Positions 1,539-55,652 of a DNA stretch of 64,000 nucleotides are shown piece by piece. The notes under the pieces are model-generated. The model was not told the DNA's origin and made no database searches. It was given only the letters and a program-made list of their open reading frames with translations. The translations under genes were made by a program, and so were the position numbers. The DNA is from Calliopum simillimum (Eukaryota > Arthropoda > Insecta > Diptera > Lauxaniidae): contig OX638371.1 in assembly GCA_951812925.1 (NCBI GenBank), positions 43,064,101 to 43,128,100 of the forward strand, given 5' to 3'. Each line of letters starts with the position of its first letter. The first letter of the stretch is position 1.

Positions 1539-1755
1539 TATACCCTACACCCAGGGTATATTCACTTTGTCCTTCCGTTTGTAACGCAGAGAAGGAGGCG
1601 TGGCAGGTATAGAAAATTATATATATTCTTGATCAGCGTCACCTCCTGAGTCGAAATAGATATGTCCGTCTGTATGGCTGGATGGCTGGCAGTGTGTGGA
1701 AATACATTTTTTGGGAAAACTATGCAAGATAATTCAATGAAATTTAGTACACCGC

Positions 1756-1794
1756 ACAGTGATGCGATTAGTAAAAGCTAGACGGAAAAAACTC
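1756..1794 (+). repeat. Left terminal inverted repeat of Transib element (23-RSS-like)
   Basis: Heptamer CACAGTG, a 23-bp spacer, then GAAAAAACT. The match to the right end (4446-4484) stops right after this block, so the repeat is exactly 7+23+9 bp. The heptamer equals the V(D)J recombination-signal consensus. The last block matches the nonamer ACAAAAACC at 6 of 9 positions, which in A-rich DNA is only moderately telling. Confidence 0.8.
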
Positions 1795-2160
1795 GAAATC
1801 GAATTTTTACATTCCGAATATGAAATAATATCAGAAAATATATAATTAACACATATGTAATTTTTTACTTACCTCCGCTTTCTACATAAAATACCAGAAA
1901 TCGTCAAAGTCGGCCTAAAAAATGATGTTTTACAATTTTGTGTCCATGAAATTAGTTGCTATTTTCACAAGTTTTTTTTAATACTTCCCAATATCGAAAA
2001 GAGTTGAAAATCGGCACACATTACGGCCAAGATAAGTTTTATGGAAACATTATAAATTCAAAACCAAATCTTTTAAAATGTTGGTGCTATAGAATAGAAT
2101 TTAGGGAGATAAATGTGTAAAAACGCCAAATTCTGCAAAACATTTTGGAAAAAAAAAATA

Positions 2161-2616
2161 GGTCACTCCATATTTCTGCCAAACTTTTTTTATTTAATCA
2201 CTGTTATGTCTACTTTAAGCCCTTGGAATGCCTAAGTGCGCAAATTTACCTTTGACTTGTTTTCTTAATCTATATGATGGTACTAAATGTTACTGTATTA
2301 ATTAGGCTCTGACCGTATTGTCTGAAATATATATAATTTTAAGTCGATGAGACTTTTTGTGGGATTTAAATATTTGTAATATAACACACACTATTTTTTT
2401 ACACTGAGAAAAAAAAAAAAAAAATACACGAAATAAAAAAAAACCGATTTTAGTGAAGTGTAAATTACTCTCAAAAACGAAAAATTTGGTTAAATGTTTT
2501 GGTAAATAAAAAAAATGGTCACTTGATATTTTCACCAAACTTTTTTTTTCAACTGAGTATTATGTCTACTCTAAGCACTAGGAGTTCCTAAGTGCGCAAA
2601 TTTGACATTGTATTTT
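2161..2616. repeat. Direct duplication inside the Transib element
   Basis: About 100 bp at 2161-2265 recur at 2517-2616. Both contain ATGTCTACT followed by TAAGC and CTAAGTGCGCAAATTT, with a period of about 356 bp. No coding meaning is seen; the short ORFs on the minus strand here are incidental. Confidence 0.6.
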
Positions 2617-2870
2617 TTTTTTAAATTTTTTTGATTGTCCTAAAAATGCTATTAATTTAAATTTCAAATCCAAGTTCCGAATATTTTTTCTAAATATAAT
2701 GAATGGTTTTTGGGTAATTTCATTACTTTGAGCTGTAATCCGGGTATCATATTTAAAAACACAACACATTATGTTAATACACAGTAAAAAAATTCAATTA
2801 TAGAAATAAAAATTAGAAAAAATAAACGTAGATAGCCCGAGAAAAGCAATAATTATTATTCTTTTGCACA

Positions 2871-3748
2871 ATGGTAGACGGTAAGATAGCAAATCACCTT
2901 TTGTCTCATAAGTCAACACAGTCGTGTTATATATGTGGTGCCAAGCCAATTGAGATGAATGCTATACAAAATGTTAAAGAACCTCGACCAGAATTTTATT
3001 GTTATGGTTTATCATCCCTTCATGACTGGATCAAAACGCTTGATTGTATATTGCATATTGGGTACAGGATGGATGTTAAAAAATGGTCAATTCGTGATAG
3101 CAAAGATAAATTATCCGTGGAAACTAGAAAAAACAAATTCAACTTCGATTTAAAAAAGAAATGGGTCTAGTTATAGATAAACCCAAGCCAGGTTATGGCT
3201 CCTCAAACGATGGAAACACTGCCCGACAATTTTTTAAAAAATATGAACAAAGCTCTGCGATAACTGGAGTAGACGTGAAGCTTATAAAAAGATTTTATAT
3301 ATTTCTAAGCTGTATCTCTTCTGGTTATAATATAGATATTTCTGCCTTCGAAATTTATATAAATGAAACTAAGGCATTATATATACAACTTTATAGCTGG
3401 TATTTTATGCCGGTAACAGTTCATAAAATTCTCTGCCATGCTAAAGACATAATACAACAATGCATCGTTGGAATAGGGCAATTATCTGAAGAGGCACAAG
3501 AGGCTCGTAACACAGACTGTAGGCGTTTTCGTTTGACAAACACACGTAAAAGCTCAAGGGTAAATACAAATACGGATTTAATGAATATGCTTCTTATCAG
3601 TTCGGATCCTTTGGTTGATTCCTACCGACAGCAGCCCCTTACAAATGTCCGCAAATTGCATCCGGACATATTAGTTTTTCTTGTTGTTGCTGATCCATCG
3701 GATATAAGAGGAGTGCGCTCAAATAATGCTTCAAATAGCGAAGAGTGA
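2871..3748 (+). pseudogene. RAG1-core/Transib-like transposase, C-terminal fragment with frameshift
   Basis: Two overlapping frames (2871-3170 and 3161-3748) form one protein broken by a 1-nt shift at the A run near 3152-3160. The first part has MVDGKIANHL and the zinc-ligand motif CYICGA. The second has DGNTARQFF, ITGVD, the histidine motif HKILCH, and IGQLSEEAQEARN followed by RRFR. This mirrors the second half of the RAG1 catalytic core as I recall it: a CxxC pair, an HxxxxH pair completing the zinc site, and the SEx(2)E..NK..RRFR block holding the last catalytic glutamate. Transib transposases share this layout. The part carrying the first two catalytic aspartates is absent (an in-frame stop lies at 2850), so the protein cannot be active. 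It lies inside the CACAGTG-bounded element, supporting the family call. Sequence error at the homopolymer is possible for the frameshift. Confidence 0.75.
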
Positions 3749-3899
3749 TCCGATCCCGATAGCAATTCTTTATCATCGTATTCAAGCTAAATGTCGTCCA
3801 GCTTATGTTGTAAAAAATATGAAAAAATAAACTATTAGTGCCTTAGAAATCAAATATTACACGTCTACTTTAAATTTCGTTATTGCAAATTTTTTCGTT

Positions 3900-4395
3900 A
3901 GTTATGATGCAAGATTTATTTCAGTTGTATGGGAGGTACCACGCCGACTTGTCCAATAGTACTCAAATTTTTTATAGATTTCAAAAACTACATAAGACCC
4001 ATACACTGCAAATTTTGTAACCGTAACTTATTCCGTTCTTAAGATGCAGCCCAAAATATATTGTAGTTGTATGGGAGGTACCACGCCCACTTGTCCAATA
4101 GTACTCAAATGTTTTATAGATTTCAGAAACTACATAAGAGCCGTACACTGCAAATTTTGTAACCGTAACTTATTCTGTTCTTAAGATATAGCCCAAAATA
4201 TATTGTAGTTGTATTGGAGGTACCACGCCCACTTGTCCAACCGTGCTCTAATTTTTTATAAATTTAAGAAACTACGTAAAACCTATACACTTAAAATTTT
4301 GTAACCATAGCACGTTTCGTTTTTAAGATATAGCGCAAAATGTAAATAAGTTGTATGGGAGGTGCCACACCCACTTGTCCAAAATTTTTGAAATA
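3900..4395 (+). repeat. 142-bp tandem repeat, about 3.5 units
   Basis: The block GGGAGGTACCACGCC recurs at 3931, 4073, 4215 and (diverged) 4357, an exact 142-bp period. Each unit continues with ACTTGTCC and ends in AAGATATAGCCCAAAATATA. The GGTACCACGCC core resembles, in reverse, the GGGCGTGGCACCTCCC core of the surrounding Helentron-like repeat, although the two belong to different transposons. Confidence 0.85.
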
Positions 4396-4783
4396 TTTTT
4401 TTTTATACTTTCCCATACCTAAAACATAAAAAACTGCAAAAAAATAGTTTTTTCCGTCTAGCATGTACCAATCGCATCACTGTGCACCGCCTCCGTTATC
4501 AAAGTTAGCTCGGGGGATTGAAAATGAGGGAAATCGGTCGCCTACCGCCCATACAAAAAATATCTGTAAAGTGCAAGTTTTGGAGTATTTTTCACAACAA
4601 TTCAATCAAAATCCACATAAATACTACGAATTGTAAGCGCAAGCTCTGAGCAAAAACTGATAGAATTCGGACAAGAGAGCGTGGCTCCTCATATAAGCAA
4701 AAGCTTCAAAACGCTGTACTATAGCGTTTTTTGAGATAATCGAACTAAATTTGAATCAGACACTAAAAACTATAAATGCAAGC

Positions 4784-5120
4784 ATGATAATTTTATATTG
4801 AACTAATTAAACAGTAATTTTTGCAATTTCGGCTACTTCCACATACATATTTATATATTTTTCATATATAAACATGTATATAGCCTCATCAGATCAGTTT
4901 TAGTTAAATCTTTCCAGAAACCGTACTCGAACCCGTGACTCCGGTTTCTAATGAAAGAAACGCGGTGCTTAAGCGATTGCGCTATAGGTCACGAGTATAC
5001 TCTTTGAACAGGATCGCCATTATGAATAAATCATAAGGCTCACTAGCGCCGTCTGTTGTGAAAAATTGCCAAATTGTTAGTAACACACTCTGGTTTTGAG
5101 ACATGCTACGCTAGCTACAA
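4784..5120 (-). other. Insertion in Helentron copy A with a tRNA-like stretch (possible SINE)
   Basis: The Helentron-like repeat is continuous to about 4783 and resumes near 5120 (GCAAAAACTGGATAAAAT). The inserted piece has on the minus strand, 4990-4912, an A-box-like TAGCGCAATCGCTTAAGC, a hairpin GTTTCT/AGAAAC and a B-box-like GGGTTCGAGTAC. The T stem pairs at only three of five positions and there is no acceptor stem, so a working tRNA gene is unlikely. A tRNA-derived SINE or a decayed tRNA is the best guess. No poly-A tail was identified. Confidence 0.35.
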
Positions 5121-5383
5121 GCAAAAACTGGATAAAATCTAACAAGAGGGCGTGGCTCCTCCCATGTAAGCAAAAGCTTCAAAACGCTATTCTGAAAACA
5201 TTTTTCCAGATAATCCAACCAAATTTCACTCAAATACTAAGAGCTATAACTGCAAACTCTGAGAAAAAAATGGGTTAATTCGGAGGGCGTGGCACCTCCC
5301 ATATAAGCAAAATTTTATAAATTCTGCTGTGTAGGGTATTTAATGTTTGGCCAGGCCAAAGGTAACACCCTTACTAGTTTTTT

Positions 5384-19633: not shown

Positions 19634-21690
19634 CTAGATTGACCTGGATATCCTACATGTAGTCAATGCTTTCCAATTAGTGTTCGCCTCGGTCAAGTAG
19701 TATGAGAAGATCCGCTTCTTTACTAGACCTAGCGGGGTATGAACTCGCACCGCGCTTGTGACATTCAGAGAGGAGCCATTCCTTGCCAGTTCGTCAGCTT
19801 TTTCGTTGCCTTCGATGTCCCTATGGCCTGGAACCCAAACGAGCGCAAGATCAAACCGACGCCCCAGTCTGACTAATTTTTCCTTGCAATCCACTACTAA
19901 TTTAGATTTTATTATTGTTGAGTTGAGTGCTTTGATGGCAGCCTGACTATCCGAGAGGATTGCCACCTTTCCGGAAAAGGTATTGATATTCTCTAAAAAT
20001 ATGCAGGCTTCGAGGATGACAAAAACTTCTGCCTGAAAAACGCTGGCTGAATCAGGCAAGCGAAACGAGTGGGATAATTTCAGCTCTTTTGAAAACACTC
20101 CCCCTTCATGAAGAGCTGTTTCAGTAGATCTTCCCTTGAGGTATGCATGCTAGCTAGCGATTCCCTAATATACCCATCTAGTATTCTTTCAAGTGTTTTA
20201 AGGACAAAAGAGGACAGACTTATTGGCCTAAAATCTTTTACTGATTCATGACCACTTCTGCCAACCTTTGGAATAAAGATAACCCGAACTTTCCTCCAAC
20301 TAGAGCGGATGTGGTTAAGAGTTATACAAGCAGTATAAATTTTAGCGAGCACTGGGCTCACTGCATCTTGCACTTTTTGCAACATAATAGGTAGAATGCC
20401 GTCTGGCCCAGGTGATTTATAAGGTGAAAAGCTGTTTAAAGACCAAAGAATTCTGTCTTTGGCAATTATTGAGCTGAGACTAGCTGGCAGAGGATTATGA
20501 AGGTAATTACCATCAGGTAAATTTCGTATGTCCTCACAGCCAGGAAAGTGAGTTTGAACTAAAAGCTCTAACGCTTCTTGCATAGATTCTGTCCACGATC
20601 CGTCAGATTTCTTGACAAAAGATGGACAAGAGTGCTCTTTGGATAGGATTCTGCCCAGCTTGGCTAAGTCCTTGATGTTGTCAATGGATTGACAAAAAGT
20701 TTCCCAAGACTGCTTTCTAGCTTCCCTGATAGCTTTTTTTGTACTTTTAGAGGCAGTCTTTATAGGGCTGCCACTCTTTTAGCTGGTGGCATTGGTTAAA
20801 GATCTTTCTTGAGGCCTTTCTTAGGTCACTCAGGTCTTTATTCCACCAAGGCGGAAGTTTTTTCCTGCTGCGAGTTATAGGGCAAGAGGCTCTATAAGTT
20901 ACCTGCATGGCGTTTTCTAAGGAACTAGCATTACTCTCTAGTTCGTCAACAGTATTGATAATGGTGTGTGGTAGTTTTTTAAACTTGGATTTGATTATTC
21001 TGTCAAAAGCGATCCAATTTGTATTTTTTATATTTCGCAAAGGTGGAGGATCTTCCACCTTAAATTTTATGTTGAAAAGAATCCACCTGTGATCCGAAAA
21101 AGAATTTTTGGTAAGGACTTTCCAATTCTCAACCCTGATACCAGAGTGTGTCAATAGAACAGTAACATCCAGGACTTCCTCCCAACCCGTGAAATTATCC
21201 GAACTTGGAAACACAAAGGTTGGAGTATTGCCAGTGTTGCAGATAGAAAAATTTGAATTAATGATAAAGTCGAAAAAAGACTCACCATGGTCATTTGTTT
21301 CGGTGCTGCCCCATAGCGTATGTCTGGCGTTGGCATCGCAGCCCAAAAGTATGTTTATATTGGAGGACGAACGCACAGCTAGCCTCTGAACTTCCTCTGG
21401 CGGTGAAGCTCGATCGTGGGCACAGTATGCTGAGGCGATGTAGAGGTCTTCCCCCTCCGCATTCTCGATCTTGACAACTGTCAGATCCTGAGTGCTAAGG
21501 TTAGGACAAAGAAAAGCTCTAAAATGTTTTTTTAAAATAATACACGATCTAGGCTTACCATTTACTCGTTTGTAAAAAAGATTGTAATTTTTATCGCCAA
21601 GTCCTTTAATGGCCAAACCAAAGACCCAGGGCTCTTGGACGATACCAATGTCAACATTTTACTCCCTGAGAAAAATGGCAAAAATAATCC
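19634..21690 (-). pseudogene. LINE ORF2: endonuclease, truncated RT, RNase H
   Basis: From the right: an endonuclease start (NVDIGIVQEPWVFG, after an in-frame TAA near 21664), then LLGCDANARHTLWGS and NSFSDHRWILF, typical of AP-type LINE endonucleases (to about 20747). Next is the RT N-terminal part with KSPGPDGILPIML and VIFIPKVGR, then KDFRPISLSSFVLKTLERIL. Near 20150-20130 the frame shifts so that AYLKGRSTETALHE reads in the downstream frame and then runs straight into GGVFSKELKLSHSF of RNase H. The RT palm with its YADD motif is therefore deleted at about 20105. RNase H keeps LSDSQAAIKAL and WVPGHRDIEGNEKADELAR. The protein cannot reverse transcribe. Confidence 0.85.
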
Positions 21691-22990: not shown

Positions 22991-24049
22991 AAAAGTTTGT
23001 AAGCGCGCACAAAAAACTTAACTGTCAAGTTTCAGTGTTGCCGATCACCTCATATAGTGGTATACTTTAGAAGTTTTTAAACTGGACTTCACCAGGGTTG
23101 CTTCATAAACTTAGTCAAGAAACATTAAACATTAAAATTAAACAATTGCTTTGATTAAAAAATTTTGTGAAACAAAATAACAGGTTAACATCCTCATCAA
23201 TGTCTTTTTTTTAACTTTTTGGCTGAAGAATTCTCTTTAGTTTTTAAAGTGTTTATTTTGAGGTTCAAGAGATTGTTCGCTAAAAAGCCCTATAGTACGA
23301 AATATTTATTGATATTGGCATCATGTCGATTCCTGTTATTTCAGCTGAAATTTTGCTGACTTGAAAAAAACATTGCTACATATCTCACATAAGACGGATT
23401 TTTACGACTATTGAGCCAGAGTAACGTTTTATGCGGTGCCTTGTCCCCGAATTTCAGTATTTGATCTAAAATTACAAAATAAACCGATTAAGAAGAAAGG
23501 AAGGATCTGATTCTATAGATCCAGTCTGATTTCATTGGACTATATCTTCAAAGCTATAAGTCGTACGAAAACAACTCCAAGGCTTCTCTATTGCAAATTT
23601 CTTGAGCTTCAAAATTGTGGACCAACATTTTTCTATGAAAGTATCGGTTAGCGTGATATTAGCAAAAACCTGATTTTCGTGACCTTTGGACCTGAATAAC
23701 TATGTATACGGCATTGATCTCTTATATTAAAATAAAGCAATTCCAATTGAAAAAGTGAAGGATCAAATTTGCTTAAACAGAAAGTCTTGTATCACTGGAC
23801 TATACCCCAATAAACCCTAAAATAAAATAAGTTAATAAAAAAAAGTTTTTTTTTCGGAGCTATTTCTCTTGAATACTTCGACATGCCCTCATCTAATGTC
23901 TCCATCACAACACATTTTTAAATATTGGTAATAACAAAATACTGACACACTACCTTCTGCGCAAAAAAATTTGAATTGTGAAAAATACTGACTTTGAACA
24001 CTCACAATTAGGGCTCTCAAATCTAAGCATTTGCTTGAAAAAGCTTATA
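22991..24049. other. AT-rich intervening DNA without a gene
   Basis: Contains loosely repeated phrases such as GATATCT, CAAAACTG and GTCGTACGAAAACAA that also occur in the MITE at 24050-24596 and the palindromes at 61780-64000. It is probably decayed repeat; no ends could be drawn. Confidence 0.35.
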
Positions 24050-33736: not shown

Positions 33737-34363
33737 ACGCAAGATCGAAAATATTGGTAAAATGACGCAAATGACACAGGATGAAATAATTAGTAATACG
33801 AAAACCGTATTGCAAGGCCTTGAAGCATTACGTGTAGAACATGTTTCGCTCATGGGTGGAATGGCTGAATCTCATAGGGATAATGAGAAATGTGACATCG
33901 TTGGAAAAAATATAGAGCACATCGAATTGGGTTTAAGCGAGGCACAAGTAATGATGGCTCTTGCTTCTCATCTTCAAAATATAGAGGCTGAAAAACAAAA
34001 ACTTAAAACTCAAGTGCGTAGATTGCACCAAGAAAATGCTTGGCTTCGAGATGAACTTGCAAACACGCAACAAAAATTCCAAGCATCTGAACAACTGGTA
34101 GCACAATTAGAAGAAGAAAAAAAGCATTTGGAATTTATGGCATCTGTTAAAAAATATGATGATAATCAAGACCAGGAAGAGTCTTGTGAAAAATCTCGTA
34201 CTGATCCTGTAGTGGAATTGTTTCCAGATGAAGATCATGATGACAGGAACAATATGTCTCCAACACCTCCCAGCCAATTTGCTAATCAAACTTCGGGATA
34301 TGAAATCCCAGCTCGCTTACGTACGTTGCATAATCTTGTTATTCAGTATGCTTCTCAAGGAAG
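33737..34363 (+). CDS. Klc: Kinesin light chain, first coding exon (residues 1-200)
   Basis: The acceptor is a long T run ending TTTTAG at 33736; 25 bp of 5' untranslated sequence precede ATG 33762. The donor is GTAAGT at 34364, leaving a codon split after two bases. Residues about 60-135 form a heptad coiled coil (IELGLSEAQVMMALASHLQ, VRRLHQENAWLRDELAN, LVAQLEEEKKHLEF) that binds the kinesin heavy chain. Then DPVVELFPDED is the LFP-acidic motif that in animal KLCs folds onto the TPR groove and holds the motor inactive. SPTPPSQFANQTSGYEIPAR leads into the TPR region. The text matches Drosophila KLC almost throughout, with differences mainly at residues 28-50. This is the cargo-adaptor subunit of kinesin-1, cytoplasmic, working on microtubules. 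Confidence 0.97.
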
Positions 34364-35229
34364 GTAAGTTCTTATAAGGTAGAATATACATATGTGGGTG
34401 CATGATAAGTTAACAACCAAACCGTGATTTATAACAAAAACTAATTGCCCCGGGAGCGATTTCGTTCGCCCGTTTCCGATGTCTTTTACTAGTGTATGTA
34501 TGTATCTAATCTCATCCATCTCTGTCTCTGTTTTTTTATATAATACAGATTTTGGCAATTTTGCCAGCGGAAATTATTTGCCCCAGTACCATTTGCATCC
34601 ATATGTTTCAAATCTCATTCTTCTGTGTTAAACAGTTTCAAAGATATGATGAATTTTGTGATTGGAAATGTTATATTTCCAAGTGCCTTCACAATATACA
34701 TTCCCAACAAACAATTTCATAACCTTTACAATTAAAGCCCAAACAACATTATCTTGCATCCAATAAAGTAGCAATTAAAAGAAATAAATTAAAATACTTA
34801 ATTTTTTTCCAACTTTGAGACCGTCTCCATACCATAAAACTTAATATTTTGAAATATTTTTTTCACACACTTCATTCCCTACAACATAAAATTTCCATAT
34901 CAAAAATTTCTGCCTTCATAGTTTACAAAAAACCAATTTCTAGAAAAAAAAAGTCATTAACATTTTCCGAAACAGCAACAATTTAATTTTTGGACCAAAA
35001 CATTCGCCTAAGAAGATAATGTTAGTCTATTCTTTCTCTACAAAAGTTTACCTAAGAATATTACGAAAAAATCAATAGTTTTGAAGTAACGGGCAGTCAA
35101 AGCGATTTGCCTTTTTTTTTTGTCCTTTTTTCAACCTTTGATCGAAAACCGACCTCTACTTTCAGGAAACGGACGGGGAGCAAATAAATTCACAACTTTG
35201 CACATTTCATACATCTCGTGGGCGCTCTA
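34364..35229. other. Klc intron, proximal part
   Basis: Non-coding. Apart from a pyrimidine-rich stretch near 34500 I see no repeat ends or exons here. Confidence 0.5.
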
Positions 35230-42223: not shown

Positions 42224-42748
<525 letters not shown>

Positions 42749-42794
42749 TAAGTCATGCATTTAAGGTATACTTCGCCGTTTGAGATAGTTCAAT

Positions 42795-45935: not shown

Positions 45936-48286
45936 CAGGGCTGGCATATTTTGCCCAGCCTAAAAAAACCCGCAATTTTCGGGTTTTTCTGGGTTTTATT
46001 GGGTTTTTTTTTTAAAAATCCTTCAGTTGGTTTTTTTACAATATGAAATTACTTTATATCAGGAGTATTCAAAAACGAAACGAGTGGAAATAGTTTTCAG
46101 AAAAAAAAGAGGTTGGAAAAATAAAAGTCAGAAAACAACTTTAGTTACATTTCTCAGTAAAAAGGCATTACCTACTATTATTTATTGCTTAAAATCAACG
46201 AATGACTTTCTGTGTACAGTTAATGTCTCTTCTTTTGTTAAGTGCATCAATTACGTAAAACAAGAACATATTAAGCAGCCAGCAACTCCAACCTTGTTGC
46301 TTTAAATCACCATAGCTACTGAAAGCTTTTTCATTTTCGTGTCATCAAAAGCTTTATAATCAAATAAAAAATATAAAATTACGTAGTAAAAAGCTTTAAG
46401 CTTAAAGAGCTTAAAGAAGTTTCCACTTCAAAAATTTGAAATTTTGAGTAACAATGTTTTCAAATTTTCAACGAAGTAGGCCTTGCAATGAAATGCATTT
46501 CAAAATTGTCGGTAAGAGATCGTCACTCAAAAGGAAGCAGTCAGTTAAAGCAGAGACTTTTTATAAGCAATCAAGAAGATAAACAAACAATTAAACATAA
46601 AGAAATATCGCAATTGGTGTGTATTCTTATTTTTCAAAAATTTAATTCTAGCATTAAGTTTTTTATATTATTTTACAAAATAGAATCTAATATGCAATCA
46701 GGGAGCGGCAGAAAATCGGGCGTTGAGTGGTCGGAAATAGTCAGAATTGAAGATGGAACAACGGTTTGCCAACATTGTCGGCAAAAAGTATCATCCAAAA
46801 TTGAGAGGATTCGCGCACATCTTAATAAATGTAAGGAACGAAAGAAGCCAGATTTGGACACAGATTGTTCAGATGAAAGTGCAAGTTGCTCAAATTCTAC
46901 AGTAGCAGAAAGTGTATCAAAAAAACTGAGAATGCAATCAACAATGAAAGATTTTACTATTTCGACTCCAACTTCACAATACAACAAATTAAACAAAGAT
47001 ATTGCAAGATTTTTTTTCGCCAACAATATACCATTTTCTGTCGTCGAAAACAACATTACAAAACAAATGTTTGAAGCACTTCGACCAGGTTATAAGCCTC
47101 CGAATAGAAAGCAGCTCGCCGGACCAATTCTGGATGAAATATCAGATGAGGTCGATGAAAAAATGGTTCACGATTTAGAAAATGCGTGTGTTACATTGTT
47201 AGTAGACGGATGGTCAAGTGTTCGAAACGATCGCATAATTGCTCACAGTATGCATACAGGTTCAAACTCGTATCTTTTAAATGCAGTTGATTGTGGATCA
47301 GAAAAAAAAACTGCGGAAAAGTGTTTCGAATTAGCAACAGATGCCATTCTTGAAATAAAACATAAATATAAGCAAGAGGTTTTTGCGGTTTGAACTGACA
47401 ACGAAAACAAAATGAAGGCGTTCCGAAAATGCATAGAGCAAGAGTTTCCACACATATTGACGTATGGGTGCTCTGCGCATTATCTAAATCTTTTAGAATC
47501 TGTGGTAACTCCAAAAAATGTTTTAAAACATATTGTGGAAGTCCATAAATATTTTCGAAACCATCACCGGCCACATGGTTGGCTTATTGAAAAAAAAGGA
47601 TTGATGCCCCAAATACCAAATGATACAAGATGGAATTCACAAAAGGAGTGTGTACGTACGTTTATTGAAAATTACCAAAAGTACAATGAAATTAGAATTG
47701 AGCATTGTATTGATGTTTCAATAAATAATATTTTATTAAATGTTGGTCTCTATTCAGAAGCAAACAATTTATACAAACAGTTAACTATAGTTGGTAACTC
47801 TTTGGATTTGTTGCAGAGCGACACAACAACCATTTCAAAAGCGGTGGATATCTGGAGATGAAAACTGCAAAACAAAACAACATACCAGCTGGATTTTGTG
47901 AATTATTCAGAAAATTGCATTCGTGCCCTTCAAGCTCTGCAGGAATTGAACGAATTTTTTCTACATATGGATTAATTTGGTCACCCATTCGAAATAGTCT
48001 TGGAACTGAAATAGCTACCAAGCTTGTAAAAGTCTATAGATTTCTTCGTGAAAATAATCCCAAGTGGGAATAAAGAATATTTTTGTAATATTTTATTGTA
48101 TTATTTATTTATTATTATTAATTATATATTTAATAAGTTCATTGAAATTAATTAAAAAAATAATTAAAACTTCTTTTTGAAAAATTTAAAGCTTTTTTTT
48201 ATTGAATATTAAAAAAACCCAATAAAACCCAAAAAAGCCCAACCCATCGGGTTTTTTATAAAAAACCCGGGTTTTTTCCAGCCCTG
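45936..48286 (+). mobile_element. hAT transposon with perfect 8-bp duplication
   Basis: CAGGGCTGG at 45936 and CCAGCCCTG ending 48286 form the termini. Both are followed inward by GGGTTTTT/AAAACCC-rich subterminal tracts. CGTCGAAT is duplicated exactly at 45928-45935 and 48287-48294; an 8-bp duplication with CAGGG ends is the hAT signature. It lies in the same orientation as Klc, within its 13.8-kb intron. The transposase inside is broken. Confidence 0.92.
46692..48073 (+). pseudogene. hAT transposase with BED zinc finger
   Basis: From ATG 46692: a BED-type finger (VEWSEIVRIED, VCQHCRQKVSSKIERIRAHL, NKC), then FFANNIPFSVVEN, DLENACVTLLVDGWSSVRN holding an RNase H-fold aspartate, and TDNENKMKAFRKCI with CSAHYLNLL. 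An in-frame TGA interrupts at 47391-47393, most simply a Cys codon change. After AVDIW (about 47857) the frame is lost by a deletion. The C-terminal dimerisation block resumes in another frame (47858-48073) with SSSAGIERIFSTYGLIWSPI and RNSLG. One nonsense change and one internal deletion make it inactive, but the rest reads cleanly, so the death is fairly recent. Confidence 0.9.
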
Positions 48287-48756: not shown

Positions 48757-49449
48757 CTATTTATATTTCGGGAACTGGCAACACTAATGTCAATATTTTA
48801 AACCTGGTAACACCATAATAAAATTTGACATTTTTTAGCATAAACGTACTCACAACGTTTTGATGTACAAGTGCTATTTGTTTTGTTTACAGTGAGTTAA
48901 GAAAATCAATTTGGCTAAAAAATGGAAATTTCAAGAGAAAGTTTTCGTTGGATTATTTTTCACAACTTTCGACGTGGATTATCTCAACAAGAATTTGTTG
49001 ATAAACTCAGTTCTTTAAATGGCGATAAAGCACTATCAAAATCCACAGTATATCTCTGGTATAGTGAATTCAATCGTGGTCGTAGTTTGGTCGCCGACGA
49101 ATTCCGTGAAGGTTGTCCAAAATCGGTTGTTGTGCCACAAAACATCGATGCAGTGACATATTGCAAGATAGAGGCATCCTTGCACATTAGTTCCACTTCA
49201 ATACTTTCGATTTTGCATGAACACTTAGTTGTAAAAAAAATTTGTTCTCTTTGGATACCCCATAATTTATCAATCGCTCAAAAAAAGGCTCTCCAAATTG
49301 ATTTTCTTAACTCACTGTAAACAAAACACATAGCACTTGTACATCAAAACGTTGTGAGTACGTTTGCGCAAAAAATGTCAAACTAAATTATGGTGTTGCC
49401 AGATTTAAGCTTTTGACATTAGTGTTGCCTGTTCCCGAAATATAAATAG
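48757..49449 (+). mobile_element. Mariner-derived element with about 155-bp inverted termini
   Basis: Ends CTATTTATATTTCGGGAAC and its mirror are flanked by TA (48755-48756, 49450-49451). The right 155 bp are an inverted copy of the left terminus and leader, including TTTGTTTACAGTGAGTTAAG, so the transposase frame runs into the inverted leader. Same family as 36132-36826 and 26150-26375. Confidence 0.8.
48922..49320 (+). pseudogene. Mariner transposase, truncated, 132 codons
   Basis: Open from ATG 48922: MEISRESFRWIIFHNFRRGL, KSTVYLWYSEFNRGRS, DEFREGCPKSVV, then a small deletion before ITYCKIEAS-like text (AVTYCKIEASLHISSTS), ILHEHLVVKKICSLWIPHNL and SIAQKK. Those are the two DNA-binding helix-turn-helix motifs of the family. 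The last residues (IDFLNSL) come from the inverted terminal sequence. The catalytic domain is absent; a DNA-binding-only product is conceivable but untested. Confidence 0.75.
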
Positions 49450-49773: not shown

Positions 49774-51256
49774 ATGGAGAGAAGAAAACGTAAAATTCGT
49801 GAAACAATCACCCTTATTCCCAATTGTCGTTTCTGTTTAGTTTCTGAGGCCTTTTAGTTTTTATCGTCGTCGCGTTTCTATATTTGGAGTCTGGAAATAT
49901 ATTGGATCGATAAGGAATGTTTAAAGACCCTTCGATAGCCACCCCTTGTCGTTCCAATACATTTCAATATTTTTCAATATATAGGAACGACGAGGAGATT
50001 TTATCGAGGGGTACGGAAAACAAAAAAATCAAACATATGCTTCGTGTTCCTAATCCCTCGATAAACGCTCCTGGTCATTTCAATATATTTACAAACTTCA
50101 AATTTAGAAACAAGACGACGATAAATACTAAAACGCCTCAAAAACGAAATTGAAACGACAATTGGGAATAGGGGTAAATGTCAGCAGATATTCTAGTGCC
50201 AACGCAGTAAGAGATTCGGTTTGCTATTCTTTTTGGATTTCGACGTAAGCTTAAGCCTGTAGAAATATTTAGTGAATGCTAAATAGCATTTGAAGTTAAT
50301 GCTCCATCCCTCGTGACTTTTTCAAAGTGGTTCCGAAGATTCCAGACAGGTCATTTTTCTGTGGAGGACGAACCTCGAGAAGGCCGCCCAAAATCTTTGA
50401 TTGATTATGCAAGTGTAGCGCTGGTGAAGTCTAAAATTGACGAAGATCCAAGATTGACCCAGGAAATAATTGCTGAGGAACTGGGCTTAAATGCCATGGC
50501 TGTATCGCAATATTAAAAAATGATCTTGGATACACGAAGAAATCTGCACGATGGGTCCCTAGAATTTTAAGTGATGCTCAAAAAGAGGCACGTGTGCGTT
50601 TTGCTAAGTATTTTCTTAAAAAATTCATGAACGGAGAGTCTAGCACTTTCAAAAAAATTGTAACAGGTGATAAAGCATGGTTTTACAAGTATGACCCTGA
50701 AACCAAACAACAATCCATGGTATGGAGCCCAGAAGGTGCGAATCCACCTGTTAAAGCAAAGCAACAAAAGTCAGCAATAAAAGTAATGATGTCAGTTTAC
50801 TTCACCAGAGAGATAGTTGTAGCTGCTATTTCTTTGGAAAAAGGTCAGAAGGTCACTGCTAAGTGGCATACTGAAACTTGCTAACCAAAAGTTTTCCAAA
50901 ATTTATTGGGAAAACGCCAAAAAAGGAGCTACGCCGCCACTTTCTACATCACGGCAATGCGCCAGCGCAAACTGCCACTGATTTTATTGCGCTTTCAGGC
51001 ATCGAAGAAATTTGTCCAGCACCTTAGTCCCCAGAACTAGCGCTTTTTGACTTCTGGTTGTTTCCAAAAATAAAAAAAATTGAGAAGGAGAGTCTTTAAC
51101 AGCAATGAGGAGATAATAAACGCGGTTAATGATGAAATTGTAAACTTGCAAAAAGCCGATTTTGAAGACTGTTTTTCAAGATGGACTTATCGACTTGAAA
51201 AATGTATCAAAATAAATGGCGATTACTTTGAAAAAATACGAACAGATGAAGAATAA
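49774..51256 (+). pseudogene. Mariner transposase (DD34D type), broken
   Basis: MERRKRKIRETI is split by a MITE. Then MSADILVPTQ, stop, EIRFAILFGFR; WFRRFQTGHFSVEDEPREGR (about 50320-50395); RLTQEIIAEELGLN; and VTGDKAWFYKYDPETKQQS with the first catalytic Asp (about 50660-50715). In the second motif HHGNAPAQTA (about 50945) the catalytic Asp has become Gly. The third motif SPELALFDFWLFPK is near 51030. Stops, shifts and small deletions are present, including about three residues missing between motifs two and three. Inactive. Confidence 0.8.
49810..50175. mobile_element. Hairpin MITE inside the mariner
   Basis: About 100 bp at each end pair: TATTCCCAATTGTCGTTTC, TTATCGTCGTC and AATATATTG, with inverse copies. 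It begins just after the first 12 mariner codons. Target duplication not clear. Confidence 0.75.
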
Positions 51257-53814: not shown

Positions 53815-55635
53815 TATGTATGTATTCTCCTTTAACTCCTAGGAGGAGCATAGGGCCAATATGAAATCTCTCCATTTGTCACGATCCCTTGCGATGACTT
53901 TGATCTCTTGCCACGATTTTCCCGATTCTTGGATTTCCTTTTCCAACGACCTTTTCCAGTTGGTTTTGGGTCTACCACGTCCTCTACAGCCTTGTGGATT
54001 CCACTCAAGGGCCTGGCGACAAACTTCGCTGTGTGGTTTCCGGAGAGTGTGACCAATCCATCCCCATTTGCGCAGCTTGATCTCGTTTGCTATAGCCTTC
54101 TGTTTGCATTTTTGATGTAGCTCGGCATTTGATATAGTGCGAGGCCACGGCCACCAAACCTTTAGTATACGCCTTAAGCATTTGTTGACGAATACTTGCA
54201 GCTTGTTTGTTAGTTGTTCAGTAACAACCCATGTTTCGCACCCATATAACAAAACCGATTTCACATTCGAATCAAAAATGCGCACTCTCGTTTTGGTGGA
54301 TATAACGGATGAAGACCATATTTTGTTCAGTTGAGCAAACGCGCCTTTTGCTTTTGCTATTCTTGAGTTGATATCCTCTTTTGCTCCACCATCCATGGAG
54401 ATAATGCTGCCTAAATACGTGAAGCTATCGACGTTTCCGATGTCATCACTGCCAGCTTTAAACGTGATGTCATTGCTTGCTTTTAGTCTTGGATACGTTG
54501 ATTTTTAGGCCGGCCTTTTGTGATTCCAAGACAAGGTCTTCAATTTTGCTTTGCATATCTGAATGTTTGGACGATAAGAGGCAGATGTCGTCAGCGTAGT
54601 CAAGATCTTCCAGATGTGCGGTAAAGTTCCATTGAATACCCCTTTTGGCCTTATTAAGAGCTTTATCTAGGATATCATCAAGAACGATAAGGAAGAGTGA
54701 TGGTGATAGTAAACACCCCTGCCGTACGCCTGAATTAGTGGTGAATGTCGGTGACAACAACCCGTTGTGTAACACACTGCATTTAAAGCCTTCATATTGT
54801 GCACGTACTAAGTTTATGGCCTTTGCGGCAATACCTCTTCGTTGCAGTGACGCCCAGATGTTTTCTCGGGAGACACTGTCGAAGGCAGTGCTATAGTCAA
54901 CGAAGACAAGTTGAAGTGCAGCACGCCACTCGCATGATTGTTCGACAATTATTCTGAGCGTGTTGATTTGATCCACGCATGATCTGTTTCGCCGGAATCC
55001 TGCTTGCTGCTTTCGAATGGCCGAATCAAGTTTTTCGCTTAACCTGCTCAGAAGCACTTTCGTCAGTACTTTTGATGGTACTGAGAGCAAGGTGATGCCT
55101 CTATAGTTTCGGCACTCGCTTAGGTCACCTTTTTTCGGCAATTTGACTAACATGCCATGTAGCCAATCTTCTGGCAAACGCTCTTCACTCCAGATTTTGT
55201 TGAGCAGAGGATGGAGAATTTTAGCTGATGTTATGGGGCATGCCTTTAGCAGTTCAGCAGTTATTTGATCTATACCGGCGGCCTTGTTGTTTTTCATGCT
55301 TTGGATAGCTTTCACTATTTCATCAATTGTAGGCGGCGGTGTTTGTATTCGACTACTACTGCGAGTCATTGCGGCAGTTGTAGTTGGTGATTCTGGTTGC
55401 AGGGATGTGGTAGACATGGGATTTAGTATATCGCAAAAATACTCTTTCCATCTGTTTAGTTGGTCGTCTGCAGATGTTAAGAGATTTCCGTTTTTGTCTT
55501 TGATAGGGCGGCTCTGTTGGAGTTTTCTGCCTGATAATCTGCGGGTGATATCGTAAAGCTGCCTGAGATTTTGAGCATTTGCAGCGCTTTCGGCTTCGCT
55601 CGCGAGGTCGTTATACATTCTTAGACCAGTCAAAT
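53815..55635 (-). pseudogene. RTE-clade LINE, 5'-truncated, RT nearly intact
   Basis: Minus strand, two long open pieces. The first (55633-54470, 387 codons) has MKNNKAAGIDQITAELLKAC, LPEDWLHGMLVKLPKKGD, CRNYRGITLLSVPSKVLTKV, KQQAGFRRNRSCVDQI, VFVDYSTAFDSV, SGVRQGCLLSPSLF and the active-site DYADDICLL (about 54585-54605). The second (54396-53839) has KSVLLYGCETWVVTEQL, KWGWIGHTLRKP and GRGRPKTNWKRSLE, the C-terminal domain typical of RTE-clade elements. A frameshift or short deletion near 54470-54400 separates them. The endonuclease is missing. The 3' end is a GTATGTATGTAT tract (about 53812), as in many RTE tails. The region is less AT-rich than its surroundings, so the insertion is fairly young. 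Confidence 0.88.
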
Positions 55636-55652
55636 TGGATACTGGCTATATA

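Follow-up and report, generated by a model that had tools for sequence, protein, structure and literature searches.

A truncated Transib-type transposon with intact ends, inserted in a dispersed repeat of a higher fly

We analyzed a window of 64 kb (the whole stretch of DNA under study) from the fly Calliopum simillimum. Near its left margin lies an element bounded by inverted ends and a 5-bp duplication, inside which part of a transposase gene can be recognized. Its features, in window coordinates, are as follows:

1750..1754, left target site duplication, CACCG
1755..4484, plus strand, 2730 bp, element assigned to the Transib type, non-autonomous copy (from its ends, duplication and transposase match)
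1755..1793, plus strand, left terminal inverted repeat, 39 nt, starting CACAGTG; 36/39 identical to the right end
1794..2852, stretch without a transposase match, expected site of the N-terminal coding part
2119..2287, internal direct repeat of about 170 bp, copy 1; 75% identical to copy 2
2473..2644, internal direct repeat, copy 2
2871..3170, plus strand, transposase piece A; HzTransib chain positions 206-295, E 1.9e-17
2877-2879, Asp codon in piece A
2925-2936, CxxC codons in piece A
3128..3748, plus strand, transposase piece B; HzTransib chain positions 294-462, E 6.5e-50
3422-3439, HxxxxH codons in piece B
3500-3502, Glu codon in piece B, in conserved alignment columns
3894..4399, tandem repeat in the 3' part of the element; 142-bp unit, about 3.2 copies
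4446..4484, minus strand, right terminal inverted repeat, 39 nt, starting CACAGTG on that strand
4485..4489, right target site duplication, CACCG

Several further features were recognized elsewhere in the window. An exon at 33762-34367 is kinesin light chain-like (974 of 1145 candidates, at least 120 of them listed); the top named entries among the matches listed are from Musca vetustissima (85%) and Teleopsis dalmanni (84%), with three rows above them at 87-89%. These matches support a fly as the host. It probably belongs to one gene with a TPR-repeat exon at 42224-42751. Mariner/Mos1-type transposase pieces (HTH_48, Transposase_1) occur at 48919-49320 and 50477-50884, and two retrotransposons are represented on the minus strand, one by an endonuclease domain at 20747-21658 and one by a reverse transcriptase domain at 54470-55645. 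An open reading frame at 46452-47393, presumably hAT-like, falls just below the Pfam cut-off for DUF659 (32.9 vs 34.7 bits).

The borders of the element are sharply defined. The two ends agree at 36 of 39 positions, whereas 300 dinucleotide shuffles reached at best 24 (mean 21.05), so that the 39-bp inverted ends with CACAGTG described in an earlier reading, made from the sequence alone, held up. CACCG abuts both ends on the outer side; that reading had recognized the duplication and had placed its start at 1751, one base late. On both sides the element is flanked by sequence of a dispersed repeat, whose further copies at 58.3, 53.0 and 29.4 kb each provide an empty site. The copy at 58.3 kb (88/100 identities) and that at 53.0 kb (71/86) align ungapped across the junction; the copy at 29.4 kb (79/99) is ungapped at the junction, with one gap about 24 bases away. 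In all three the length fits one 5-base unit, and in all three the five bases differ from CACCG; the copies have diverged. Four copies had been counted by the sequence-only reading, a number that drops to three because the copy near 35.7 kb does not contain the junction. Ends, duplication and empty sites thus establish the insertion. The interrupted repeat (1540-1749 and 4490-5339) itself has an apparent start, ATACCCTACAC, and an apparent end, GTGTAGGGTAT, which by eye form a short inverted pair.

Could these borders have arisen by chance around an unrelated, older protein remnant? The one point in favor is that no second copy of the family was found in the 64-kb window by the end-pattern search, in which a 19-nt end pattern allowing up to 3 mismatches gave no third site (0.04 chance matches expected). 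Since ends, duplication and empty sites all coincide on one border, we regard such a coincidence as the least likely of all the readings weighed here.

Pieces A and B occupy different frames and share positions 3128-3170. The series CxxC, HxxxxH and SEEAQEARN noticed earlier was recovered at 2925-2936, at 3422-3439 and from 3485 onward, respectively, and 24 aligned sequences show no variation at H99, H104, E121 or E125 of piece B. The codons for the second Asp and the Glu of the DDE triad are present, and we take these residues to hold the corresponding DDE roles in the remnant. When the fold of piece B was modelled (mean pLDDT 74.7) and compared with the PDB, HzTransib entries took ranks 1-5 (E 1.3e-11 to 4.5e-10), followed at rank 6 by an amphioxus RAG1-like protein (E 0.022); the superposition of the model on HzTransib is loose (TM 0.54-0.59, rmsd about 10-12 A).

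The name Transib given in the sequence-only reading is borne out by these comparisons, HzTransib being the best solved match of both pieces (E 6.5e-50 and 1.9e-17). For piece B, the amphioxus RAG1-like protein scored E 0.046 and the best RAG1 chain E 0.49, with two cyclin chains (E 0.26 and 0.34) ranking in between; because RAG1 chains score below cyclins, similarity to vertebrate RAG1 at the level of single sequences falls within the range of chance hits, although its position is right. The Pfam RAG1 model aligned to piece B with 15.1 bits (E 0.0066), below its curated cut-off of 25 bits, and this alignment covers the HxxxxH pair and E125, the last Glu of SEEAQE, whose RAG1 counterparts we take to be H937, H942 and E962. 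In the Pfam scan at E <= 10, RAG1 was the only model returned for piece B and nothing was returned for piece A; no other DDE family matched, in line with what had been proposed.

These data bear on the possibility that the element is a RAG-like transposon of the RAGL/ProtoRAG type, with a RAG1-like gene that has lost its RAG2-like partner. The CACAGTG at its ends is identical to the consensus heptamer of the RSS in a passage of PMC8289069, and piece B does match RAG1 and RAG1L proteins weakly. However, HzTransib scores E 6.5e-50 where amphioxus RAG1L reaches 0.046 and the best RAG1 chain 0.49, five HzTransib entries lead the fold search, and the end consensus of protostome RAGL elements, CACTWMCAAACKTYKBB in the part of PMC7204232 consulted, is unlike the element end CACAGTGATGCG. 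The encoded protein is thus not closest to RAG1 or RAG1L, and besides piece B the list of open reading frames holds none of at least 130 aa inside the element. We consider a RAGL origin highly improbable. Among the enzymes compared the closest transposase is that of HzTransib, the duplication is 5 bp long and GC-rich, and the ends start with CAC and resemble the RSS heptamer; by sequence, this combination supports assigning the element (1755-4484) to the Transib type. A reading of the ends as 12/23 RSSs was also tried and rejected: the heptamer is exact, while the nonamer agrees at 6 of 9 positions at best (spacers 8, 22, 23 and 24 at the left end, 22 and 23 at the right end), and both ends are alike.

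Relatives of the remnant are numerous and distant. Of 680 candidates in the protein database, 420 matched the read-through query at E <= 0.001; its top listed relative (best 120 of 420) aligns to 93% of the query with 55% identity, and the 16 named rows among the matches listed are all insects. The piece B query matched 223 of 300 candidates (at least 120 listed), with named relatives among the matches listed that include the blowfly Calliphora vicina and the spider Uloborus diversus. Across both queries, identity among the matches listed peaks at 62%, along 75% of piece B, and therefore no near copy is present among them. In a 121-sequence tree, P0009 comes closest, at 0.95 substitutions per site (grouping support 0.91). 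Of the pattern matches in viral contigs, none of 4 was confirmed with the piece B query and none of 11 with the alignment A1 query; the latter also gave 47 pattern matches in genome contigs, none confirmed. One of six relatives scanned, P0002, passes the Pfam RAG1 cut-off with 34.9 bits. The database assigns Pfam PF26100.1 to P0002, P0016, P0038 and other listed relatives; our Pfam scan of these three did not return PF26100 at E <= 1.

A probable second, far more decayed Transib remnant was noticed around 23433-23054, where short stretches follow one another in the right order along the minus strand. The top two profile matches outside the element both fall in the 23054-23433 region (E 0.02 and 0.09), and four relatives match that 500-bp bin at E <= 0.05, compared with one in each of two other bins. 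A third stretch, 23433-23377, was seen only in a region-confined search, and no convincing pair of ends was found for the trace. These similarities weakly suggest an older-looking Transib trace near 23 kb.

The N-terminal part of the transposase is missing from the element. Nothing corresponds to what precedes HzTransib chain position 206, roughly 205 residues, and we take this part to contain the region that binds the ends as well as the first catalytic Asp. With 120 relatives, and also in a profile search, no N-terminal transposase match was found at 1755-2852 at E < 1e-3. The N-terminal parts of 52 relatives (those of the 120 with at least 80 residues ahead of the motif) likewise gave no match below E 0.1 against 1755-2870, while among themselves such parts match with a median E near 1e-27. 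At E <= 10 they gave ten matches, the best at 0.11 on the minus strand; six of the ten share an end point at 2120 on the minus strand, which we attributed to chance, given the poor scores and the wrong strand. Separately, the 3' tandem repeat, which was also delimited as 3923-4382, has a 142-bp unit of which one part is similar (81% across 48 bp) to sequence next to the dispersed repeat near 58.6 kb. The element does not encode a full-length transposase in a single frame with the whole DDE triad. As its N-terminal part is absent and the remainder lies in two frames, it is non-autonomous as found, and judging from its coding sequence a working enzyme is not to be expected from the copy at 1755-4484.

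An alternative is that the C-terminal fragment is itself under selection, for example as an inhibitor of intact transposase. Piece B is free of stops over 206 codons, with CxxC, HxxxxH and Glu intact in the remnant, and among the 93 relatives with a locatable motif (of 120 scanned), 12 start exactly at Met-x-Asp-Gly-Lys, the site of the Met of piece A. Against this stand the frame break between pieces A and B, the distance of the nearest relative (0.95 substitutions per site), and the fact that 11 of these 12 relatives come from contigs shorter than 5 kb and may be cut open reading frames. We therefore consider selection on the fragment very unlikely, if slightly less so than a RAGL origin; the same small chance is given to its extension, a higher-fly non-autonomous Transib family that would keep a functional C-terminal half-transposase from the second catalytic Asp.

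The reading we prefer, with a probability of about 96%, is a cut-and-paste transposon of the Transib superfamily that entered an older dispersed repeat in the genome of a higher fly. A transposase would have bound the two 39-nt ends and excised the element, and joining to target DNA with a 5-bp stagger would have left CACCG on either side; we infer this cut-and-join chemistry from existing knowledge on Transib and RAG. Because no working enzyme is expected from this copy, either an enzyme from an intact copy elsewhere would have moved it, or the N-terminal part would have been lost after insertion.

The Transib copy at 1755-4484 is real but ordinary, with intact ends and a truncated, broken enzyme gene; it belongs to a well-known transposon family related to the enzyme that rearranges antibody genes in vertebrates. 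What is gained is one well-bounded Transib copy of a higher fly, with RSS-consensus heptamer ends and a clean empty site, which helps genome annotation. The earlier reading saw the element as tying this type of protein to its DNA signal; that is not new, as for Transib the link is already in print in the parts of the literature consulted. Passages of PMC4411706, PMC8355894 and PMC7204232 relate RAG1 and the RSS to the Transib transposase and its ends, and PMC7204232, in the part consulted, already bases that story on functional and structural Transib studies; complexes of HzTransib with its ends appear among the PDB titles from our fold search. The fly copy leaves the Transib-RAG story unchanged.

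Compared with RAG1 core/ProtoRAG, the element differs in its very weak sequence match and in that no RAG2-like gene was noticed inside it; it shares the order of CxxC, HxxxxH and a catalytic-type Glu, CAC-starting ends and a 5-bp duplication. Such duplications are described for Transib in passages of PMC8355894 and PMC7204232, and a passage of PMC8289069 covers both the GC bias of the duplications and the heptamer likeness of the ends. Drosophila hopper and transib2 were compared by their published target sites: in the part of PMC3276498 consulted, 5-bp duplications are given for 532 of 533 hopper sites and 7 of 7 transib2 sites, together with that paper's own 7-bp target motif for both, CCANTGG, and a motif from earlier work for transib2, CABHG. 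CACCG fits CABHG, to which 0.5% of the 5-mers in the window conform, but it agrees with CCANTGG in part only, the site ACACCGC matching 3 of 6 specified bases. HzTransib of Helicoverpa zea (PDB 6pqn, 6pqr, 6pqx and 6pqy), for which a passage of PMC1852546 gives a length of 3518 bp, a 489-aa deduced protein and GCTCG as the duplication, encodes a full transposase, whereas the fly copy is frame-broken and without about the first 205 residues; the two share the transposase core, inverted ends and a 5-bp duplication.
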